A DNA stretch of 51,549 nt, taken from Candidatus Nitrosocosmicus sp. GTDB taxonomy: Archaea; Thermoproteota; Nitrososphaeria; Nitrososphaerales; Nitrososphaeraceae. The translations under genes and the position numbers were made by a program. The notes beneath the pieces are model-generated. The model was not told where the DNA came from. It did not search any database and was given only the letters and a program-made list of their open reading frames with translations. The stretch is taken from positions 1 to 51,549 of the forward strand of contig JAPSGR010000011.1 of the NCBI GenBank assembly GCA_031177355.1, read 5' to 3'. Every line of letters starts with the position of its first letter. Position 1 is the stretch's first letter. Below are positions 18,880-28,859 of this stretch, piece after piece.

Positions 18880-20994
18880 TCATTGTTTTATTATTAATAA
18901 AACGTCAGAATTTATTTTTTCCAATTGTTCTCTTATCGCTTGAATCACTTGTTCATTAGCATTGAGGCTAGAAAAATCTAATAATTGAAAACCATCAATC
19001 AAGTGGATATTTGGAGAAAGATCAGAACTTGATGAGAATTTTGATACAATGGACGGAAGTTCTTCAGTTAGTTTTGTTGACGAATTATGTATTATTTTAC
19101 CGTTATCTAATGAAAGGCGCACTCTACCATATTTGTCCAAAACAAGTATTGATTGTCTGTTTGTATTAAAGAACAGTTTTTTTTGTTTATACAAATTAGT
19201 AAAAATACAGTAATTTCCTAACTTATAGGCAAGAGAAACAGTTCCACTATATTGAAACAAATCTTTTGCAATTTCTAACAATTCTTCCTGTTTTAATTCT
19301 TTAGAGCCGTTACTATTCAAGTCAAGGGTAACGTTACCTATGGCAGTTACTCTTAGTATTGACCGGTCACTTACATATTCGGACTGAACAGATAGAGAAT
19401 CAGGGGATGCATTCTTTCGAATCGCTTCGTCTTTAACTTCTGCTATCAATTGGCTAACATCCTCAGGGGTAGGATTATTAATTGTTTTTTCTTTTTCTTC
19501 GTAAATCATACCTGTAGCCACCCCAATCGAAGAAATGACATCGGCATAATCTGCCTTCTTATACTCAAAATTAAGTTTCTTTGCTACCAGAGGAACCAAA
19601 ACAGAGGCTCCTCCACCTCCACCAATAACAACTATCCTCCTTTTGGATAATTTATATTCTTTAATCATTGGATTAATGTAATCGGTAATCTTTGAAACTG
19701 ATATTTCCAAGACTTGTTGGGCTATTTGTTCAGGAGACATCCCTATAAAAGTGGCTAGTTTGGTAAATGCAATTCTAGCTGAATCGATATTTCCATAGGC
19801 ATTATCATTTTTAGGTATAAGATTTAATGCATTAGCTGCACATGTGTTAGTTATTCCGTATCGCTTTCCACTTGGAACTTTAATGCAGATATAATCATTG
19901 GGATCATTATTCAATGGACTAATAGTAACAATTTCTCCTTTTTTCAAATCCTCGGGATTTGCAAAACACGAGTACTCTAAACCTGCAATATGAGAGGACC
20001 TTGGACCGACATCAATAATTTTCTTTTTTGAAGAAACCCTTATCAATGAACCTCCAGCCACGCCACATATTCTAGAGTCAAGAGATCTAATGCAAGTAGG
20101 ATGTTCCATTATGTTTACATAGCGCATTTCCGGTTTGCCATCTTTAATGATACTAATATTGGTTGATGTACCACCAACTTCTATAAATATCCCCTCTAGC
20201 ACTTGTAAAAAAAGTAATGCCCCCACCACGCTTGCTGCTGGACCTGATAATACAGTTACTATAGGCTTGTGTAAAAAAGAGTCCAGTGTAGTTACACCAC
20301 CATCACCTTTCATTATCATTACAGGCACATTAATGCCAAGCTTACTAACTGCTGATTTTACAAAAGTCGCAGTACTTGTAGCCTTTGGAAGAATACTCGC
20401 ATTAATTGTTGCTGTCAATGTTCTAATTTCTAATCCATAAATTCCAGTCAATTCATGTCCAGCTGTACAAGGGAGCTTTGAATGTTTCATAACAAATAGT
20501 TCATTGCTAGGATCGTCGACTCCGAAAGCTTCACTAACAACTATAGATTGAGCACCCTCAGATACTAAATTTTCGATAGATTTTAGAATGCCAGGTCCTT
20601 CTAAATATTTAGAAGTATCCAAAAAAGTATAACAAGTTTTTAAAAACTTATTAGAATTCAAAGATATATCTTTTATATGAGTTCTTTTTACAACATTTGT
20701 TTTTTCCATTCCTACACCCATACCAATTATACCAACTTTTGAGACATCGCCCTCAAGGAATGCATTAACAGCTTGGGTTGTGCTGTGAGAAATCAACTCT
20801 ATCTCTTCATGGTCTATGTTGCAAATTTCAATTAGTGAAGATAGTGCATTTACAATACCAACAGAAACACCACCCTCCATAGAATGGGTAGTTGGGACGG
20901 ATTTTTTTCCAAGGATTTTTTTTTCGACGACATCTATTGCTACGGCTTTAGTAAAAGTTCCACCCACATCTATTCCGATCCGAATCTTTTTCAT
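18880..20994 (-). CDS. hydantoinase/oxoprolinase family protein (HyuA type)
   Basis: A 704-residue ATP-dependent hydantoinase A/5-oxoprolinase-family protein with an actin-like ATPase fold. The N-terminal phosphate loop GIDVGGTFTKAVAIDV (residues 7-22), LISHSTTQAVNA, MKGDGGV, VLSGPAASVVGAL and IEVGGTSTNIS are all present. Family members open cyclic amides such as hydantoins or 5-oxoproline. No HyuB partner is next to it. The neighbouring gene on the same strand, 92 bp upstream, encodes a glutamate-racemase-fold protein, so the two may act together. Substrate is not predictable. Confidence 0.88.
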   Translation of the reverse strand: MKKIRIGIDVGGTFTKAVAIDVVEKKILGKKSVPTTHSMEGGVSVGIVNALSSLIEICNIDHEEIELISHSTTQAVNAFLEGDVSKVGIIGMGVGMEKTNVVKRTHIKDISLNSNKFLKTCYTFLDTSKYLEGPGILKSIENLVSEGAQSIVVSEAFGVDDPSNELFVMKHSKLPCTAGHELTGIYGLEIRTLTATINASILPKATSTATFVKSAVSKLGINVPVMIMKGDGGVTTLDSFLHKPIVTVLSGPAASVVGALLFLQVLEGIFIEVGGTSTNISIIKDGKPEMRYVNIMEHPTCIRSLDSRICGVAGGSLIRVSSKKKIIDVGPRSSHIAGLEYSCFANPEDLKKGEIVTISPLNNDPNDYICIKVPSGKRYGITNTCAANALNLIPKNDNAYGNIDSARIAFTKLATFIGMSPEQIAQQVLEISVSKITDYINPMIKEYKLSKRRIVVIGGGGGASVLVPLVAKKLNFEYKKADYADVISSIGVATGMIYEEKEKTINNPTPEDVSQLIAEVKDEAIRKNASPDSLSVQSEYVSDRSILRVTAIGNVTLDLNSNGSKELKQEELLEIAKDLFQYSGTVSLAYKLGNYCIFTNLYKQKKLFFNTNRQSILVLDKYGRVRLSLDNGKIIHNSSTKLTEELPSIVSKFSSSSDLSPNIHLIDGFQLLDFSSLNANEQVIQAIREQLEKINSDVLLIIKQ

Positions 20995-21086: not shown

Positions 21087-21902
21087 TTAAAGCTGCAATG
21101 ATACATCGACTATCAGCTCACGAACTCCCATATATCTAAGGATAGACTGAAAATCATTTTTATCCGCAGATACAAGAATCTCAAGCTTACCTGTCCCATT
21201 TTTATTCAAGTCTCCCATGTATTTGAGATAGTTCTTTACATCACGTGCAACTTCCGTCGAAGAATTTACTAATTTTATAGAAGGTAAAATGGCTTCAATA
21301 TAATTTTTTACAAGTGGTAAATGAGTACTACATAATGCTATTACATCAATTGTATTATCTATGTATGGTTTAACCACATTCTTAATTTTTTGATATGTTA
21401 ATTTATTATCAAACAAAAATGTCCCATCTTCAACGAGTTTAATTATCTCTGAAGAATCTATTTTTTCTACAAAAATTTGTTGAGGTACTTCTTTTTTTAT
21501 GAGATAGTTAAATTCTTTGCTTTCGAGTGTTCCTCTCGAAGCCATGATTGCAATATGTTTTTTCCTACTTTGATTTATACTTTTTTTCAATGGTAGGCGT
21601 GTGGAAATAATATTGGTGGAGAAATCGTTCTTTATTTCATCGTATATTTGGATTGATGGTGTATTTGATGCCATTACTATTAACTTTGGTTGATATCTTT
21701 CCAAGAATTTGATTGATTTAGACATTATTTGTTTTAATTCACTTTTTGTCTTTTCTCCATATGGAAAATGCATTTTATCGGCATAGTATAAAATGTTCTC
21801 AGCTGGAATAATTTTTCTTAACTCTCGTACAACAGATAAGGATCCTAATCCTGAATCAAATACCGCAATAGGTCTATACAGCACAAGTAATAACACGCAC
21901 AA
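21087..21902 (-). CDS. glutamate/aspartate racemase-fold protein lacking both catalytic Cys
   Basis: A 271-residue protein with the MurI fold signatures: VFDSGLGSLSV (residues 14-24), YYADKMHFPYGEKT, and the mirrored THLPL motif. In active MurI enzymes the two catalytic cysteines lie in A-C-N-T and G-C-T-H. Here the first motif is ASNTPS (Ser79) and the second is LCSTHLPL, where Ser192 takes the Cys place and Cys191 sits one residue earlier. Asp16 and Ser17 are kept. Classical two-base racemisation is therefore unlikely. The frame opens with TTG at 21902, but GTG codons at 21896 and 21884 give a start closer to RPIAVFDSG. An archaeon has no murein to supply. Confidence 0.8.
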   Translation of the reverse strand: MCVLLLVLYRPIAVFDSGLGSLSVVRELRKIIPAENILYYADKMHFPYGEKTKSELKQIMSKSIKFLERYQPKLIVMASNTPSIQIYDEIKNDFSTNIISTRLPLKKSINQSRKKHIAIMASRGTLESKEFNYLIKKEVPQQIFVEKIDSSEIIKLVEDGTFLFDNKLTYQKIKNVVKPYIDNTIDVIALCSTHLPLVKNYIEAILPSIKLVNSSTEVARDVKNYLKYMGDLNKNGTGKLEILVSADKNDFQSILRYMGVRELIVDVSLQL

Positions 21903-21927: not shown

Positions 21928-22395
21928 CTATTCTTTGATACAACAATTTCCCTCAGGTATTTGATATCCATGAGGGCATATTTTTGGATGTTTTAATAAG
22001 GTACAAAGGGCATCAGTAAAAATATCTTTCATGTGGTGTTCAATACCACAAACCATCTCTTCATCAACATCGATTTTGAGTGCGTCTTTCATTAGCACCT
22101 CCAAAAGTCGCGTGTTACGTATCATCTTTTTTCCTATTTTTTCTCCTTCAGTTGTGAGAGTCACTATCGAACCCCTTTTGTAATCGATTAAGAGAGAATC
22201 ATTTAATTTATGCAGCATTTGAACCACTGACGGCTGAGTTACATTTAAAATCTTGGCTATTGAACTAACCTTTAATTCTTGTCCACTTTCCAATATAGAC
22301 CACATTGCTTTTAAATACATTTCAACATGCTCAGCTTCCGCTGTCCCCACAAACAATTGTTCGGAAAGATCAGAATTTTTTGAATATGCAGTCAA
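21928..22395 (-). CDS. DtxR/IdeR-family metal-dependent transcription regulator
   Basis: A 155-residue regulator. An N-terminal winged helix (SIAKILNVTQPSVVQMLHKL, residues 45-64) is followed by the dimerisation/metal domain with VCGIEHH (C116, E119, H120), equivalent to the DtxR primary site C102, E105, H106. A Cys at this place favours Fe(II) over the Glu of Mn-type MntR. The end HPKICPHGYQIP is the usual DtxR anion-site segment, and there is no SH3 domain. Two ancillary-site histidines of DtxR are not conserved. It lies 25 bp upstream of the racemase-fold gene. DtxR-like boxes at 22835-22865 and 28679-28692 are its probable targets. Confidence 0.9.
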   Translation of the reverse strand: MTAYSKNSDLSEQLFVGTAEAEHVEMYLKAMWSILESGQELKVSSIAKILNVTQPSVVQMLHKLNDSLLIDYKRGSIVTLTTEGEKIGKKMIRNTRLLEVLMKDALKIDVDEEMVCGIEHHMKDIFTDALCTLLKHPKICPHGYQIPEGNCCIKE

Positions 22396-22471: not shown

Positions 22472-22834
22472 TCACTGTGAAATAGAACTAGATAAGTTCT
22501 TTTCGTTTTTCTTCAATTGTAAGACGACTTGTTTTTTGTTTAAGACTAGTTCAACGGACTGAATTTTACTCCTATAAAATACGACCTTTTTTCCTTTTTC
22601 ATTTATTAAAATTCTATCTATAAACAATAGACCCAGGTCCTTGAGCTTTCTTATTTTTTTGTAAGTAGAACTGATTGGTAGATCATTTTCCTTACAGATC
22701 TCAAAGACTGTTTTTGAATCCTCTATGGTGGACATTACAATTTTATATGAAAATCCATCGAATAATTCCTTTAAAAGAATTGATGTGTTCTTATTCTCAT
22801 GGTCCAATAAATATTGCTGATCAGATAACATCAT
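22472..22834 (-). CDS. winged-helix transcription regulator
   Basis: A 120-residue wHTH protein. Residues 40-75 (TVFEICKENDLPISSTYKKI, then RKLKDLGLLFI) form the helix-turn-helix and the start of a wing, and the C-terminal part is lysine-rich. It resembles the small ArsR/TrmB-like regulators common in Thaumarchaeota. Two TTAGG-N4-CCTAA palindromes begin at the base next to its ATG, so it is probably iron-controlled through the DtxR protein encoded just downstream. It may extend that response to further genes. A second ATG at codon 2 is an alternative start. Confidence 0.82.
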   Translation of the reverse strand: MMLSDQQYLLDHENKNTSILLKELFDGFSYKIVMSTIEDSKTVFEICKENDLPISSTYKKIRKLKDLGLLFIDRILINEKGKKVVFYRSKIQSVELVLNKKQVVLQLKKNEKNLSSSISQ

Positions 22835-22865
22835 TTAGGCTTACCTAATTGTTAGGACAACCTAA
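22835..22865. promoter_or_regulatory. tandem DtxR-like operator boxes
   Basis: TTAGGCTTACCTAA (22835-22848) and TTAGGACAACCTAA (22852-22865) share the form TTAGG-N4-CCTAA, with centres 17 bp apart. On the minus strand they directly abut the ATG of the wHTH gene. A TATA-like TTTAAATATT sits just upstream (about 22863-22874), so the boxes would cover the transcription start of a leaderless mRNA and block it. Confidence 0.8.
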
Positions 22866-22984
22866 TATTTAAACGCTGTTATATTTTTATGAACAAGTAT
22901 AAATAGAACTTTAATATGTGCAGATTTTAGTTTATGTGAAACAAAGTCTAAAACGATAGACCCTTTCTGGGCGGTCTAATAATC

Positions 22985-23262
22985 TCTGTTCTATTATAAA
23001 TTTTCCCACCATCGAGGGCGATAGAACAATGGTAGTTGTAAGCCCTTATTGTCAAATTTCAATAAATAAACTTGTTTTGATAGTATCATATCAGAGTCAA
23101 ATAATTGTCCTCTTTCGAATCATTGTCAGATTCGTAAGTTGCGCTGTGTGATACATTATCTTCATTGTACCAACTTATAGTCTCACCTTATTTTACAGTA
23201 ACTGGATTTGGAGAATAAGATTTATCCCCGCCTATACCATTATTGTTAACAACACCGAAGTT
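22985..23262 (-). pseudogene. decayed cupredoxin (plastocyanin-like) gene
   Basis: On the minus strand the region still reads as a blue-copper domain in broken frames. From about 23220 down it gives SYSPNPVTVK, then an in-frame TAA at 23190-23188, then GETISWYNEDNVSHSATYES. A frame change leads to LFDSDMILSKQVYLLKFDNKG. A second change near 23010 gives YHCSIALDGGKIYN, where functional relatives have a Y-x-C-x-x-H-P segment. One copper His (in VSHSA) and the Cys survive, while the His after the Cys is lost. At least one stop and two frameshifts make it non-functional. No start or signal peptide is recognisable. Confidence 0.75.
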
Positions 23263-23424
23263 TCAAATATATTTTTTGATCGTGTTCAATCTTGAGCGTT
23301 TGATGTTTTGTTTTTAAGTTTTGGTAATATTCTAATTAAATGCAAGATGTGGCTTTTACGGGCGGTTTGTAATTAGGAGAAAGTTCAAATTCGTTAGAAA
23401 AAATGAAAATACTATATATGATAA

Positions 23425-24087
23425 ATGAAAAATACTTCTCGAGTACAATTGCAGATAATCGATCTAACTCAGGAAATTGATGAACATATACAGGTCTTTC
23501 CAGGCTCTCCACGGGTGAGTTTATTGCAGTGGTCAAACTATGAAACTCATAAATTCGCTTCTGAAGCAATCTTTTGTAGTACACACGTAGGAACTCACAT
23601 CGATGCCCCATATCATTTTAACATAGGTGGTAATACAGTTGAAAAGATTTCTCTTGAAAAGCTAATAATCCGAGACAAGGTAAAAGTTCTAAAGATGGAA
23701 AAGAAAGATTACGAAAAAATTGAGACAGACGATCTGAAAAATTATGAAATCATGGAAAACGATTCGATATTAATTAACACTAATTGGTCAAAATACAAAG
23801 ATATAGGTAAGTATTTTAATAAAAGCCCAGGCTTATCAAAAGCCGCAGCAAAGTATCTGGCAGAAATCAAAATAAATCTTATAGGAATAGACAGTCCAAA
23901 TATTGATCCAGCCACTGACAATGATTTTAGTTCACATAAAATTTTTAGTGAAAGCAACATTCTTGTTATAGAGAATTTAATGAATTTGGATAAATTATTG
24001 AATAATAGATTTACCTTGATTGCACTACCTCTTAAATTAAAGAACTGTTCTGGAGCGCCCATTAGAGCTGTAGCCATATTAGACTAA
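23425..24087 (+). CDS. cyclase-family metal hydrolase (kynurenine formamidase-like)
   Basis: A 220-residue protein of the cyclase/KynB family. The metal motif HVGTHIDAPYHF (H54, H58, D60, H64) is preceded by FPGSPRV and followed late by PLKLKNCSGAPIRAVAI, the usual C-terminal signature. Members hydrolyse formamides or cyclic amides and esters. It starts at ATG 23425 and stands alone on the plus strand between minus-strand genes. Its substrate is unknown, and a kynurenine role is not supported by neighbours. Confidence 0.85.
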   Translation: MKNTSRVQLQIIDLTQEIDEHIQVFPGSPRVSLLQWSNYETHKFASEAIFCSTHVGTHIDAPYHFNIGGNTVEKISLEKLIIRDKVKVLKMEKKDYEKIETDDLKNYEIMENDSILINTNWSKYKDIGKYFNKSPGLSKAAAKYLAEIKINLIGIDSPNIDPATDNDFSSHKIFSESNILVIENLMNLDKLLNNRFTLIALPLKLKNCSGAPIRAVAILD

Positions 24088-24169
24088 TATTTTGCCAAGA
24101 GTTTAACAATAGATCTGAATGCAATAATAAAATCAAAAGAATAATCAATAAAGATTATAAATATATAAC

Positions 24170-25276
24170 CTAAAGGTCATTTTTCCTATTCTTTGATTTT
24201 GAATTGCTAATTAGTCCCACTAATCTATAACCATACTCAAAGTTATGTTTTACATGGTTAATTCCATGTGTTAGATGGGGTTCAAATTTACCATCTAAGA
24301 TATTCTCAATGTAAAACTGAACCTTTTTAATTGAGATTTGAGAATGTCTAATTTGTTTATCGGACAAGGAACGTCCTAGTTCCGATTCAATTTCTAATCT
24401 AAAATCTTTTAACCCTGTCAATTTACCATATCTAAGGATCTTGTTATAATTATTGCATATATCGTATAGCTTTTGTAGTTCTTTAGGAGGTAATGTGGAT
24501 AAAGAAGCCTTGACTTGGATTGGATCTCTATGAACGATTTCTGCGATTTTGTATACCATTTCTTGTATCATGGACATATTGTCTTCTTGGGTATACGTAG
24601 AATGTCGGCGGGTACTTTCCTTTGCAACAACATAGTTTATCTTTGAACCTGATGGATCATCAATCTTACCCAAAAGATGGCCTGAGGGCCCTATATGTTT
24701 ACCAGGTATGTGTGATAATGAATTTAAATCTCTATCTGGGTAAGAATACTTATGAGATATTAATAACGATTTTTTAGAATTATAATATGCCTTCAACTGA
24801 AAGAGAGATATTCTTTTACCTGTGAGATCGGTTTTAAAGAATATAATAGATAAAATATCTACAAGCAAATTTGGAAATTGAATTTTTACATTATCAGGAA
24901 GATTATCATAGTTATGGAGCAAATCGTTACAGATTTCGAAAACAACATTATCATATGTAGATAATGTAAACGGGATAGAATTAACCCGTTTCTTAATCAA
25001 ATGATCAATAAGGAATTTATATGACATTATAAAGAAATCATATACATCATTTTTTCTTAAGATAAATCTATCATTTTGAATAATGATTGTTATCGTTTTT
25101 AACAATATCATGTAAGGATCTGTAACCTTGATATCAGGGAATAAATTTTGAAAATCATTCATAAAGGTAACAAAATAATCATCATTTTGTGCAAGGTCAT
25201 CGACCCAATTAATCCCAAGTTCTCTGAAATTTTCTTTAAATAAAAAATTGAAATCAATATTCGAATTATTAGTCAT
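24170..25276 (-). CDS. hypothetical protein, unknown family
   Basis: A 368-residue soluble, Asn/Ile/Lys-rich protein with no signal peptide or membrane helix and no motif I recognise. The first 170 residues are mostly helical. A central Gly/Ser/His stretch (residues 190-215, HIPGKHIGPSGHLLGKID) is followed by a helical C-terminal half. Intact length, ATG start and codon use like its neighbours support a real gene. It may be lineage-specific. Confidence 0.65.
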   Translation of the reverse strand: MTNNSNIDFNFLFKENFRELGINWVDDLAQNDDYFVTFMNDFQNLFPDIKVTDPYMILLKTITIIIQNDRFILRKNDVYDFFIMSYKFLIDHLIKKRVNSIPFTLSTYDNVVFEICNDLLHNYDNLPDNVKIQFPNLLVDILSIIFFKTDLTGKRISLFQLKAYYNSKKSLLISHKYSYPDRDLNSLSHIPGKHIGPSGHLLGKIDDPSGSKINYVVAKESTRRHSTYTQEDNMSMIQEMVYKIAEIVHRDPIQVKASLSTLPPKELQKLYDICNNYNKILRYGKLTGLKDFRLEIESELGRSLSDKQIRHSQISIKKVQFYIENILDGKFEPHLTHGINHVKHNFEYGYRLVGLISNSKSKNRKNDL

Positions 25277-25377
25277 TCTTGGACATCATATATGATAATT
25301 TTTTTTGTTATTAAACATTAGAAAATAATCCAATCGAAAAATATTATAACAAAATATTATATAATACAACATAAATA

Positions 25378-26049
25378 TTATCTTCTTTTACCATTATTCT
25401 CATTGTCGGAATCGGTTTCAGGGCTATCAATGGCCCAAGGAAACCATTTTCCAATTATTTTGGCCCAATCGAATTTAAATGTAAAAAATAAGAGCAGGAC
25501 TAACAATATTACTGACAATACTGTAACTAGTAAAGCAGAATATTCATTATTAGAATCGGTTACAACGAGAAATCTTTCCATTATTGGTCTACCTAGAAAA
25601 ACTGTACCCCAAACGATTGACGCACCCAAGAAAAACTTGCCAATAAACGTGAATAATGCAAATCTAGATGGACTATACTTTGCTATTCCTAGTGGAATAT
25701 AGACTAGATCATCAGGAATAGGAGTTAGAGCGGCTACAAAAACTCCTATTCCTCCATATTTGCTCAATAGTTTTTGAAGAGGAAGCATTCTAGTCTTTGT
25801 CTTTTTGCTCAAAATGTTACGGCCATAATAACTCGCAATAAAGATTATAGTTTTGGCCAAAACAGCACCAATTGTGCTCAATAAGACTATTATATTTGGA
25901 TCTAAACTTTTATCAAGGGCGGAAGTAACTAAAACAGGAAAATAAGGAACTGGAATAAATGGAATAATACTACCAACAAAGCTGATTAGAAATATACCAA
26001 CATAACCTGAACTACTATAAAAAGAATAAAGGTCTTGTATATCAATCAA
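25378..26049 (-). CDS. DedA/VTT-domain membrane protein
   Basis: A 223-residue polytopic protein of the DedA/SNARE-associated (VTT) superfamily, whose members are implicated in lipid scrambling/flipping and membrane homeostasis. Features are the glycine-rich re-entrant segments (GSIIPFIPVPYFP; GVFVAALTPIPDDLVYIPLG, residues 102-121) and a long final helix (about 170-195). The tail is hydrophilic. The start is TTG at 26049. It is separated from the FTR1 gene by 96 bp on the same strand, though no functional tie is known. Confidence 0.82.
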   Translation of the reverse strand: MIDIQDLYSFYSSSGYVGIFLISFVGSIIPFIPVPYFPVLVTSALDKSLDPNIIVLLSTIGAVLAKTIIFIASYYGRNILSKKTKTRMLPLQKLLSKYGGIGVFVAALTPIPDDLVYIPLGIAKYSPSRFALFTFIGKFFLGASIVWGTVFLGRPIMERFLVVTDSNNEYSALLVTVLSVILLVLLLFFTFKFDWAKIIGKWFPWAIDSPETDSDNENNGKRR

Positions 26050-26145
26050 ACAAAGAAATATAAAATTAACAAATATAACTACTTTCTTAATTTTACGAAC
26101 TTTTCAAATAAAATTAGTAAAAATTTGATATCCTCAATTCCCCAT

Positions 26146-28602
26146 TTACATTTTTGAATCTTTGATTCCTGCAGATCCCCCCTTTTCTCTATCTCCTACG
26201 GACTTTCTCATTGCAACGATCTTTTTTTGTCGTCTAGGCTGTATAAACAAAATATACATGGACCCTGCCACGTAGATAGCAAGCAATATTACCTGTCCTA
26301 CAACAGTTTCAAGCGTTGGATGAATACCGGTCATAGTTGCCACATTAATGTCAAACCTAGGGATAATGCCCAGTAAATGGGTTGTTGGAATCCATCCAAG
26401 TTCCTGGAATTCACGCAGAGCGTTGCCTAGGAATGTTATGGACATAAAAGCTCCTACTCCCATGGTTAGACCAAACAGAACTCTGAGAGGTAGCTTCTTT
26501 CCTAGTTTTCGGATTATAAAGACAACTGCAATAATAATAGCTAATCCTAATACCATGCCTGCCAACACATACAGCTCCATGTATTTTGCAAAGGAAAACA
26601 ATGCTTGATAGAACAAAACAGTTTCAAACCCTTCCCTATATACTGTAAAGAATGCAAGTAGAACAAATACCATAAAACTTCCTGTAGTTGTTGCTTGCCA
26701 TACTTTTGCCTTCACAAATTCAATCCACTTTTTAGTCTCAATCTTATTAAGGACCCAGAAGCTTACCCAGAAGAGTACAGCCACAGCTGAAATTCCGGCT
26801 ATAGCCTCTATGAGTTCCCTTTGCGCCCCAGAAATATCAATTATGAACTCGGCAATTACCCATGTAACCGCCGTAAAACCTATAGCAAGGACGATTCCGG
26901 CATAAACATGTTTTTTGAACTTTTCATTTCGGGAAGCTTCCAAATAAGTGAGTATAGCTCCTATGATCAAAGCCGATTCTAATCCCTCCCTGAAAATAAT
27001 TGAAAACGATGAAGAGAAAGCAATCACTGGTGCCACAACACCTATACCCGATACAAATCTTTCAGATTCGTCTAATCCATTTTTTAGTTCATATATCTTA
27101 GATACAACCTGCTCAGATGGAGCGTTAGCAGATATAAGATTGCGTAGTTCTGCAAATTTTATCTCCATTTCAAGCGTGAAATCAGGATCGATAGGTCTTA
27201 GCGGTATCTCTATTTTTTCATAACTGTCCAGATAGGCTGATCTGGCAGTGGCTAATGCTTCGGATGTATCATTTTGATTGTAAATACTGATAACTTCATC
27301 CAGTTTGATTCTTATAATGTCTATGTCGCTACGAACTTGGCTCTTGAAGTCTTCTGACGCATTTCCCATAGCTCGTCTTTCACCAGTATATATTCCAAAT
27401 CCCTGCTTAAGTGAGTCAATGTTAGCTGTATTCGCAACAAAAGCCGAGGGCAGAGTCAAGTTACCCTGATTTGCCGCAGCAGCAGCAGATGGGCTACTAC
27501 TGGTGCTCAATAATTGTTTAGAAGTTTCAAGATCTGCTTTTATATCAGAGATATAAGCTTGGATTTCAGGTAATGAAGTTTGATTCTGAATCATGTCACG
27601 CAGGTTTTCTCTCATATTTGTTTCAATTTGGAGCATAAGAGTAGAATTTACTTCTTCTATAGGTGCTTCTAGATATTCAAAATTATCCAAATATGCAGAA
27701 GACACATTCTTGTCTGCGGCAGTATAGTCACCATTTTGAAGAGAAGCGAGTGCATTATTCAATAAAGTATCAATGTTATCATAATAAGCTTGGAGAGCAG
27801 GGTCGACGGCATTAGTGGAACTTTGTAAACGAATATTGTTTGATTCATTTAGGTCATTTTCTATTGCCATAACTAGTCTCAAAAATTCTGCGGTATCTTC
27901 ACTTTTAGAGGAGATTAGAGAGTTTAAGTTTGAAATAAAATATTCTACTTCTTCAGATTTTGCAGAGGTCATATTTGGTTTCAGTATTTCAAAAATCGAA
28001 TTGGATTGGTTTAGCAATCCTAAGGTATTTTCATAATCCATCATAGCAAAATGTGCTGCTTCTGCATCAGGTAATTTAGATGAATTCAAGTAAATATCAT
28101 ATGAATTCAAAGCATCTCTAAGCAAATAGGCCATAGTTTGAGATTCAAGAATAGAAAAATCTTGATTGGATAATGAATCCTTTAATTTAGAATGGAAAGC
28201 ATTTATCAAGCTTATTGAGTTTGTGACTTCAGTTCTTAGAAGAGGTGAATCAGGAGTAGTTCTTGCTTGCAGTCCAATATCAGTGAGATTAGCTTCCAGA
28301 TTCCTAGCTAAATTGTTATCGAGAGAAATAGCAACTGGTTTGATGGATGGATAAATTACAGAATGAGGAATATAAGCATGTTCGAATAGAAAAGTATTGT
28401 TATTGCTATTAATCTTATCCAAAATAATATTTAATTGAGTTTCCATTCTGTTTAAATTAAGGTTCAAAAGTAAGAGGTTTTCATTGGAGATAGATGAGCG
28501 TTCAGCAGAAGTTGAAGTTTGAGCTGAAGCGTTATTGATGCATGACAGAGAGACGTTTATAACTAATACAAATACAATAAAAAAAGCTAATAATCTTACC
28601 AT
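26146..28602 (-). CDS. FTR1-family iron permease with large extracellular domain
   Basis: An 818-residue protein. After a signal peptide (about 1-27) come about 490 extracellular, mostly helical residues. These contain at least two related modules built around SAYLDNFEYLEAPIEEV (about 300) and SAYLDSYEKIEIPLRPI (about 455). The C-terminal membrane domain (about 525-790) carries the two iron motifs REGLE (538-542) and REGFE (656-660) typical of FTR1/EfeU. It should import iron, perhaps using the outer domain to bind or deliver it. A Shine-Dalgarno GAGGAG lies 9 bp before the ATG, and a DtxR-like box sits about 77-90 bp upstream, next to an AT-rich TATA region. Confidence 0.92.
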   Translation of the reverse strand: MVRLLAFFIVFVLVINVSLSCINNASAQTSTSAERSSISNENLLLLNLNLNRMETQLNIILDKINSNNNTFLFEHAYIPHSVIYPSIKPVAISLDNNLARNLEANLTDIGLQARTTPDSPLLRTEVTNSISLINAFHSKLKDSLSNQDFSILESQTMAYLLRDALNSYDIYLNSSKLPDAEAAHFAMMDYENTLGLLNQSNSIFEILKPNMTSAKSEEVEYFISNLNSLISSKSEDTAEFLRLVMAIENDLNESNNIRLQSSTNAVDPALQAYYDNIDTLLNNALASLQNGDYTAADKNVSSAYLDNFEYLEAPIEEVNSTLMLQIETNMRENLRDMIQNQTSLPEIQAYISDIKADLETSKQLLSTSSSPSAAAAANQGNLTLPSAFVANTANIDSLKQGFGIYTGERRAMGNASEDFKSQVRSDIDIIRIKLDEVISIYNQNDTSEALATARSAYLDSYEKIEIPLRPIDPDFTLEMEIKFAELRNLISANAPSEQVVSKIYELKNGLDESERFVSGIGVVAPVIAFSSSFSIIFREGLESALIIGAILTYLEASRNEKFKKHVYAGIVLAIGFTAVTWVIAEFIIDISGAQRELIEAIAGISAVAVLFWVSFWVLNKIETKKWIEFVKAKVWQATTTGSFMVFVLLAFFTVYREGFETVLFYQALFSFAKYMELYVLAGMVLGLAIIIAVVFIIRKLGKKLPLRVLFGLTMGVGAFMSITFLGNALREFQELGWIPTTHLLGIIPRFDINVATMTGIHPTLETVVGQVILLAIYVAGSMYILFIQPRRQKKIVAMRKSVGDREKGGSAGIKDSKM

Positions 28603-28678
28603 GATATTTTTCTCCTCAGATAAGGGTTTGACTGGACATAAACTTGATCCTTAAGGCAATAGTTAAATATAACTAACA

Positions 28679-28692
28679 TTAGGCTTACCTAA
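28679..28692. promoter_or_regulatory. DtxR-like operator box upstream of FTR1
   Basis: TTAGGCTTACCTAA is identical to the first box at the wHTH gene. Read on the minus strand, it lies directly downstream of an AT-rich TATA-like stretch (about 28693-28715), so a bound repressor would cover the transcription start. This predicts iron-dependent repression of FTR1. Confidence 0.78.
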
Positions 28693-28859
28693 TTTTATAA
28701 TAAATATAATTTAAACATTGTTAGTTAAATCTGTTAATTCTAACAATCTTCGTTTAAAACTTTTATAATGAATTAATAAATTACACCTAGATTTATTATA
28801 ATATTCTATAATTAATGAGATTATTTGAAAGGGTTAAAATAAAAAGAATAGAAATATTT

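Follow-up and report, generated by a model that had tools for sequence, protein, structure and literature searches.

TTAGG-N4-CCTAA boxes point to a DtxR-type regulon, most likely for iron, in Candidatus Nitrosocosmicus

Leyn and Rodionov reportedly described DtxR-family regulons in Archaea in 2015. Haloarchaeal examples have targets other than those considered here, namely siderophore ABC transporters (PMC11349517). In bacteria, structural work led to the proposal that the 14-bp sequence TTAGGNNNNCCTAA is the true single-dimer consensus of IdeR, which binds the half site with an apparent dissociation constant (KD) of about 78 nM (PMC8464063). The literature found on ammonia-oxidising archaea and iron described its uptake and named no iron regulator, and DtxR is unmentioned in PMC6776035. 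The present analysis concerns a stretch of 51,549 nucleotides from Candidatus Nitrosocosmicus sp. (contig JAPSGR010000011.1, positions 1 to 51,549), referred to below as the window, in which a sequence-only reading had noticed TTAGG-N4-CCTAA boxes and had suspected an iron regulon of an ammonia-oxidising archaeon; the organism is indeed one. The analysis supports a DtxR-type regulon in this organism, with iron as the most likely metal. The boxes can, with good confidence, be regarded as operators of a DtxR/IdeR-type metal-dependent repressor, very probably the one encoded at 21928-22395. The conservation of the box in dozens of related genomes indicates that a DtxR-like protein very probably controls iron genes in these archaea. 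The principal features, including the gene of a winged helix-turn-helix (wHTH) regulator, are as follows.

22866-22873, minus strand: TATA element TTTAAATA of the wHTH promoter, invariant in 14 congeners
22852-22865, minus strand: TTAGGTTGTCCTAA, proposed operator box 1 at the wHTH promoter, immediately following the TATA element and kept in all 14 congeners having the gene
22835-22848, minus strand: TTAGGTAAGCCTAA, proposed operator box 2 at the wHTH promoter, abutting the start codon (ATG, 22832-22834) and 17 bp from box 1
22472-22834, minus strand: open reading frame (ORF) of a 120-amino-acid ArsR-like winged-helix regulator, predicted regulon member
21928-22395, minus strand: two-domain DtxR-family metalloregulator, proposed box binder (PF02742, 5e-20; PF01325, 1.5e-12)
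28709-28715, minus strand: TATA element TTTAAAT of the FTR1 promoter
28679-28692, minus strand: proposed operator box of the FTR1 promoter, TTAGGTAAGCCTAA, 16 bp after TTTAAAT and 77 bp upstream of the FTR1 ATG (28602)
26146-28602, minus strand: 818-amino-acid FTR1/EfeU-type iron permease with a long N-terminal domain (PF03239, 4.3e-18)

The window scan returned three exact boxes, two at the wHTH promoter and one at the FTR1 promoter, where 0.04 were expected by chance and none of the shuffles contained three. Copies with up to two mismatches were not in excess (24 versus 27 expected), so the signal is confined to near-perfect copies. That the palindrome occurs only at two promoters, as first read, is true of the window but not of the genome, in which three promoters carry it. 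When the 131 contigs of this genome (97% complete) were scanned, five exact boxes were found versus three for a reversed-pattern control, and 50 boxes with up to one mismatch versus 133, so that enrichment by count was dropped as a test. Since the counts were uninformative, positional conservation was used in their place. Four of the five exact sites lay at the three promoters, and at each of these the TATA element, the box and the downstream sequence were conserved within the genus; contig C105 carries the fourth site (C105:12994-13007). The fifth, at C93:53066 within a kinase-like ORF, looks like a chance occurrence. A genome-wide set of iron and metal genes with boxes near their starts had been expected, and the set proved to be small, consisting of FTR1, the wHTH gene and one RNA-like locus.

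Orthologs of the wHTH and FTR1 genes were collected with their promoters from 80 relatives, and intact promoters were counted, allowing up to one mismatch per box in the wHTH pair and requiring an exact single box for FTR1. All 28 wHTH promoters whose upstream sequence was intact had the box pair (29 if a degenerate pair in G044 is included). Of the 29 intact FTR1 promoters, 28 had the exact single box, and only that of G023 lacked it. These conserved promoters span about ten genera, against a background of 1.8 boxes in a million bases, which amounts to 2.7e-4 for a promoter of 150 bp. The two boxes of the wHTH promoter were spaced 17 bp apart in the window's genus and 14 bp apart, that is, abutting, in other genera. 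Among the 14 congeners, none of the 20 columns in the arms of this pair varied, compared with six of eight in the N4 centres, 44 of 45 upstream and 44 of 60 in the coding sequence. Judged from this alignment, the invariant arms and variable centre are a classic binding-site footprint.

Exact boxes were also mapped in further genomes, and the adjoining genes were named with Pfam. Boxes were found at FTR1 in another family, f4 (G051, G067, and G077), at a second FTR1 in G009, at FeoB (G067), at VIT1 iron transporters (G050 and G064), at a ferritin (G042 and G037), at substrate-binding proteins (G050 and G066), and at ZIP transporters (G016 by Pfam; a similar protein in G021, named by likeness). 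In four lineages the DtxR genes themselves carry boxes (G051, G077, G062, and G063). One operon, in G058, begins with three boxes (one exact, two with one mismatch), which are followed in order by an FTR1 N-part, FTR1, a hydantoinase-like gene, a 142-amino-acid ORF and DtxR. Random distribution of the motif had been named beforehand as a refutation: the raw count is indeed near chance, but the boxes keep their positions at orthologous promoters across the family and, in other families, lie at iron genes, a pattern that randomness cannot produce. Some other sites, within ORFs or beside unrelated genes, are probably due to chance. Separately, a box was observed 5 bp before a gene resembling a TFB-type general transcription factor (L122:2045-2746, G050:C6).

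The likeness of the box to bacterial IdeR/DtxR sites, suspected from its letters, proved to be identity with the single-dimer IdeR site (PMC8464063), and TTAGG/CCTAA repeats at iron genes are what is found in the iron-type DtxR/IdeR subgroup. The DtxR homologue reported at 21928 is a real ORF, with both Pfam matches above the curated cut-offs, and no second PF02742 protein was found in the genome. Its structural model (predicted local distance difference test score, pLDDT, 86) best matched IdeR/DtxR entries of the PDB at a root-mean-square deviation of about 2 Å, the best matches being IdeR-DNA complexes (E 3e-9). With IdeR/DtxR residue numbering taken from phmmer ranges and 21 orthologs compared, the primary ligands Met10, Cys102, Glu105 and His106 correspond to M26, C116, E119 and H120, which bears out the Fe-type C-x-x-E-H site (C116-G-I-E-H120); by these ligands the protein is, at the level of sequence, of the iron type. 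The recognition-helix contacts Ser37, Pro39, Thr40 and Gln43 are matched by T53, P55, S56 and Q59, of which P55 and S56 are invariant in the orthologs and Q59 is mostly kept; the Q43A substitution leaves IdeR binding unweakened (PMC8464063). As a side observation, four cysteines at the C-terminus (C131, C140, C151, and C152) were invariant in the 21 orthologs, beyond the usual CPHG motif, and could possibly form an extra metal or redox site.

The placement of the boxes, which had been thought right for repression, agrees with this predicted role. Box centres lie about 11 and 28 bp from the TATA centre at the wHTH promoter and about 26 bp from it at the FTR1 promoter, and the usual archaeal distance from TATA to start is about 25 bp, so the operators would cover the expected transcription start and a bound dimer should block initiation. 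With ample ferrous iron, a metal-loaded DtxR dimer would bind each 14-bp box, two dimers lying side by side from the TATA element to the start codon at the wHTH promoter and one lying over the expected transcription start of FTR1; either arrangement would obstruct RNA polymerase or the initiation complex of the archaeon. When iron runs short, the repressor would come off, allowing the FTR1 permease, the wHTH regulator and the further RNA-like locus to be expressed. The wHTH promoter, with its two adjacent sites, would be held more tightly, and its product may act as a second-tier regulator made under iron shortage. We infer all three elements of this scheme: DtxR as the binder, iron as the metal and repression as the effect.

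Several observations weigh against a DtxR-controlled iron regulon. Box totals are near chance in most genomes of the family, so that lone sites in other genomes are untrustworthy unless conserved, and in the f9 genomes DtxR is present while the boxes are mostly imperfect. The ancillary metal site of IdeR/DtxR (His79, Glu83, His98 and SH3-domain ligands) was not recovered: Glu83 is kept, but His79 is replaced by Thr95, and the 155-amino-acid protein lacks an SH3 domain. Its closest PDB sequences are those of the manganese regulators SloR and ScaR. In G004, a genome of the same genus, FTR1, wHTH and the hydantoinase gene were lost together and dtxR was kept with a racemase-like gene (L194, G004:C61:22000-29000), so DtxR must have another job there; this genome also represents a natural knock-out of the regulon.

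The nearest solved sequences and the loss of the ancillary site would also suit a regulator that senses manganese in the manner of MntR or SloR, or metals generally, as would the ZIP transporter that is a target in two genomes and the failure of the protein to reach any iron or manganese equivalog cut-off in NCBIfam. In MntR, however, acidic residues occupy the positions equivalent to 102 and 10, while the primary site here has Cys and Met there, as in DtxR/IdeR, and the targets are mostly iron genes (FTR1, FeoB, VIT1, and ferritin). A sensor of manganese or of metals in general is therefore considered rather unlikely.

It is less likely still that the wHTH protein itself binds the boxes, autoregulating its own gene and controlling FTR1, with DtxR a mere neighbour. 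In every ortholog the box pair, the strongest operator, abuts the wHTH start codon, and in several genomes (G031, G036, and G024) the wHTH gene adjoins FTR1. Against this, boxes persist at FTR1 where no wHTH ortholog was found (G043 and, in family f4, G067) or where the only matches are distant paralogs (G033, G038, and G048), as they do at ZIP genes in G016 and G021, which also have distant paralogs only. G043, G067, G033, G038, G048 and G016 all have the DtxR ortholog, or in f4 one of 50% identity. Because boxes persist where wHTH is absent, DtxR rather than wHTH is the likely binder; the boxes at DtxR genes in four lineages and the identity of the motif with the IdeR half site also speak against wHTH, and ArsR-like folds are not known to recognise such a motif. 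The wHTH protein matched no family profile in Pfam or NCBIfam. Its AlphaFold model (pLDDT 79) has an ArsR-like fold, the best PDB match being the P. furiosus heat shock regulator 2p4w, with CzrA and SmtB also among the best (TM-score about 0.5-0.6), and is generic, pointing to no target. As for chance palindromes, to which genome-wide counts close to or below those of the control might have pointed, they are refuted by the footprint, its position conserved across genera, and can be practically dismissed.

In the window's genus dtxR has a conserved TATA-like element of its own and no box, which makes it doubtful that dtxR is a plain second gene of the wHTH operon. Two further genes lie beyond it.

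21087-21902, minus strand: glutamate-racemase-like gene between dtxR and the hydantoinase gene (TIGR00067, 7e-48)
18880-20994, minus strand: hydantoinase/oxoprolinase-like ATPase, linked partner of FTR1 (PF01968, 1.7e-51)

There was no support for control of the racemase-like gene through these boxes, since it is kept in G004, where FTR1 is lost. In its product Ser replaces the first catalytic Cys (ASNTPS) and the second Cys is retained (LCSTH); by sequence, this protein may be something other than a racemase. The FTR1 permease has the FTR1 domain (PF03239, 66 bits versus a cut-off of 25.3), and its match to the NCBIfam EfeU equivalog TIGR00145 (1.4e-33) was below the curated cut-off. Presence of the hydantoinase-like ATPase was concordant with that of FTR1 in 30 of 30 family genomes, including absence in all six genomes that lack FTR1 (probability by chance 1.7e-6, a figure that ignores kinship). 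The two genes are adjacent in two other families (G056 and G058), and the hydantoinase-like gene has its own upstream box in five g12 genomes, G019, G023 and G026; in the window's genus it has its own TATA element and no box. The protein is possibly a partner of FTR1 in iron uptake. The FTR1 neighbours that were inspected included neither an EfeB gene nor one for a multicopper oxidase. In one metagenome-assembled genome (G012:C4), stops interrupt the wHTH, hydantoinase and FTR1-like frames, through either gene decay or assembly error.

The third promoter of the genome leads into an RNA-like locus (C105:12773-13013, locus L202, minus strand), in which a TATA element and box stand ahead of a conserved stretch of about 220 nt that contains long invariant blocks and in which the reading frames are broken. 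The locus was conserved in nine of the 15 genomes of the genus (the window's own and eight congeners). In seven congeners an ORF for a membrane protein of 120-122 amino acids starts about 300-500 nt after the box, which makes a 5' leader an alternative to an RNA; the locus may thus be an iron-controlled non-coding RNA or the 5' leader of the membrane-protein gene. Folding of the Nitrosocosmicus sequence was not clearly better than that of shuffles (z -1.7 and +0.4). A different conserved RNA-like sequence, of about 105 nt (100-160 nt) and with a GC-rich hairpin, follows a box pair in four g12 genomes.

L097:2060-2166, plus strand: g12 RNA-like locus
L118:1950-2050, minus strand: g12 RNA-like locus
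L112:1863-2021, minus strand: g12 RNA-like locus
L109:1952-2054, minus strand: g12 RNA-like locus

Neither type of locus had a gathering-level match in Rfam, only sub-threshold noise, and a model of the g12 RNA found nothing convincing outside g12. It can be proposed tentatively, and with more doubt than confidence, that ammonia-oxidising archaea also have non-coding RNAs that respond to iron and are driven by DtxR boxes, with a role like that of RyhB or IsrR.

These results provide a concrete operator, regulator and small target list for cultured Nitrosocosmicus or Nitrososphaera, and they draw attention to an unexplained partner of FTR1 and to archaeal RNAs that may be under iron control. 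They also offer cases in which the 14-bp single-dimer site of IdeR, the function of which was left open (PMC8464063), occurs naturally and is conserved. As far as the literature found shows, the regulon is new for this group, and its kind is known from bacteria and other archaea. It resembles the DtxR-family regulons of haloarchaea (Idr/SirR/TroR) in the proposed control of iron genes by a DtxR-family protein through a palindrome. EfeU/FTR1 systems likewise have a permease with an FTR1 domain under iron-type control, as is predicted here, but the candidate partner in this case is a hydantoinase/oxoprolinase-like ATPase. With the IdeR/DtxR regulon of Actinobacteria (operator TTAGGTTAGSCTAACCTAA) it shares the regulator family, the primary ligands, the CCTAA repeats and the spacing per dimer. 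The actinobacterial operator, however, packs two overlapping dimer sites into 19 bp, while the 14-bp sites described here are isolated or lie side by side, 14 or 17 bp apart, in an archaeal TATA promoter, and would be served by a regulator that lacks the SH3 domain and the ancillary His79.

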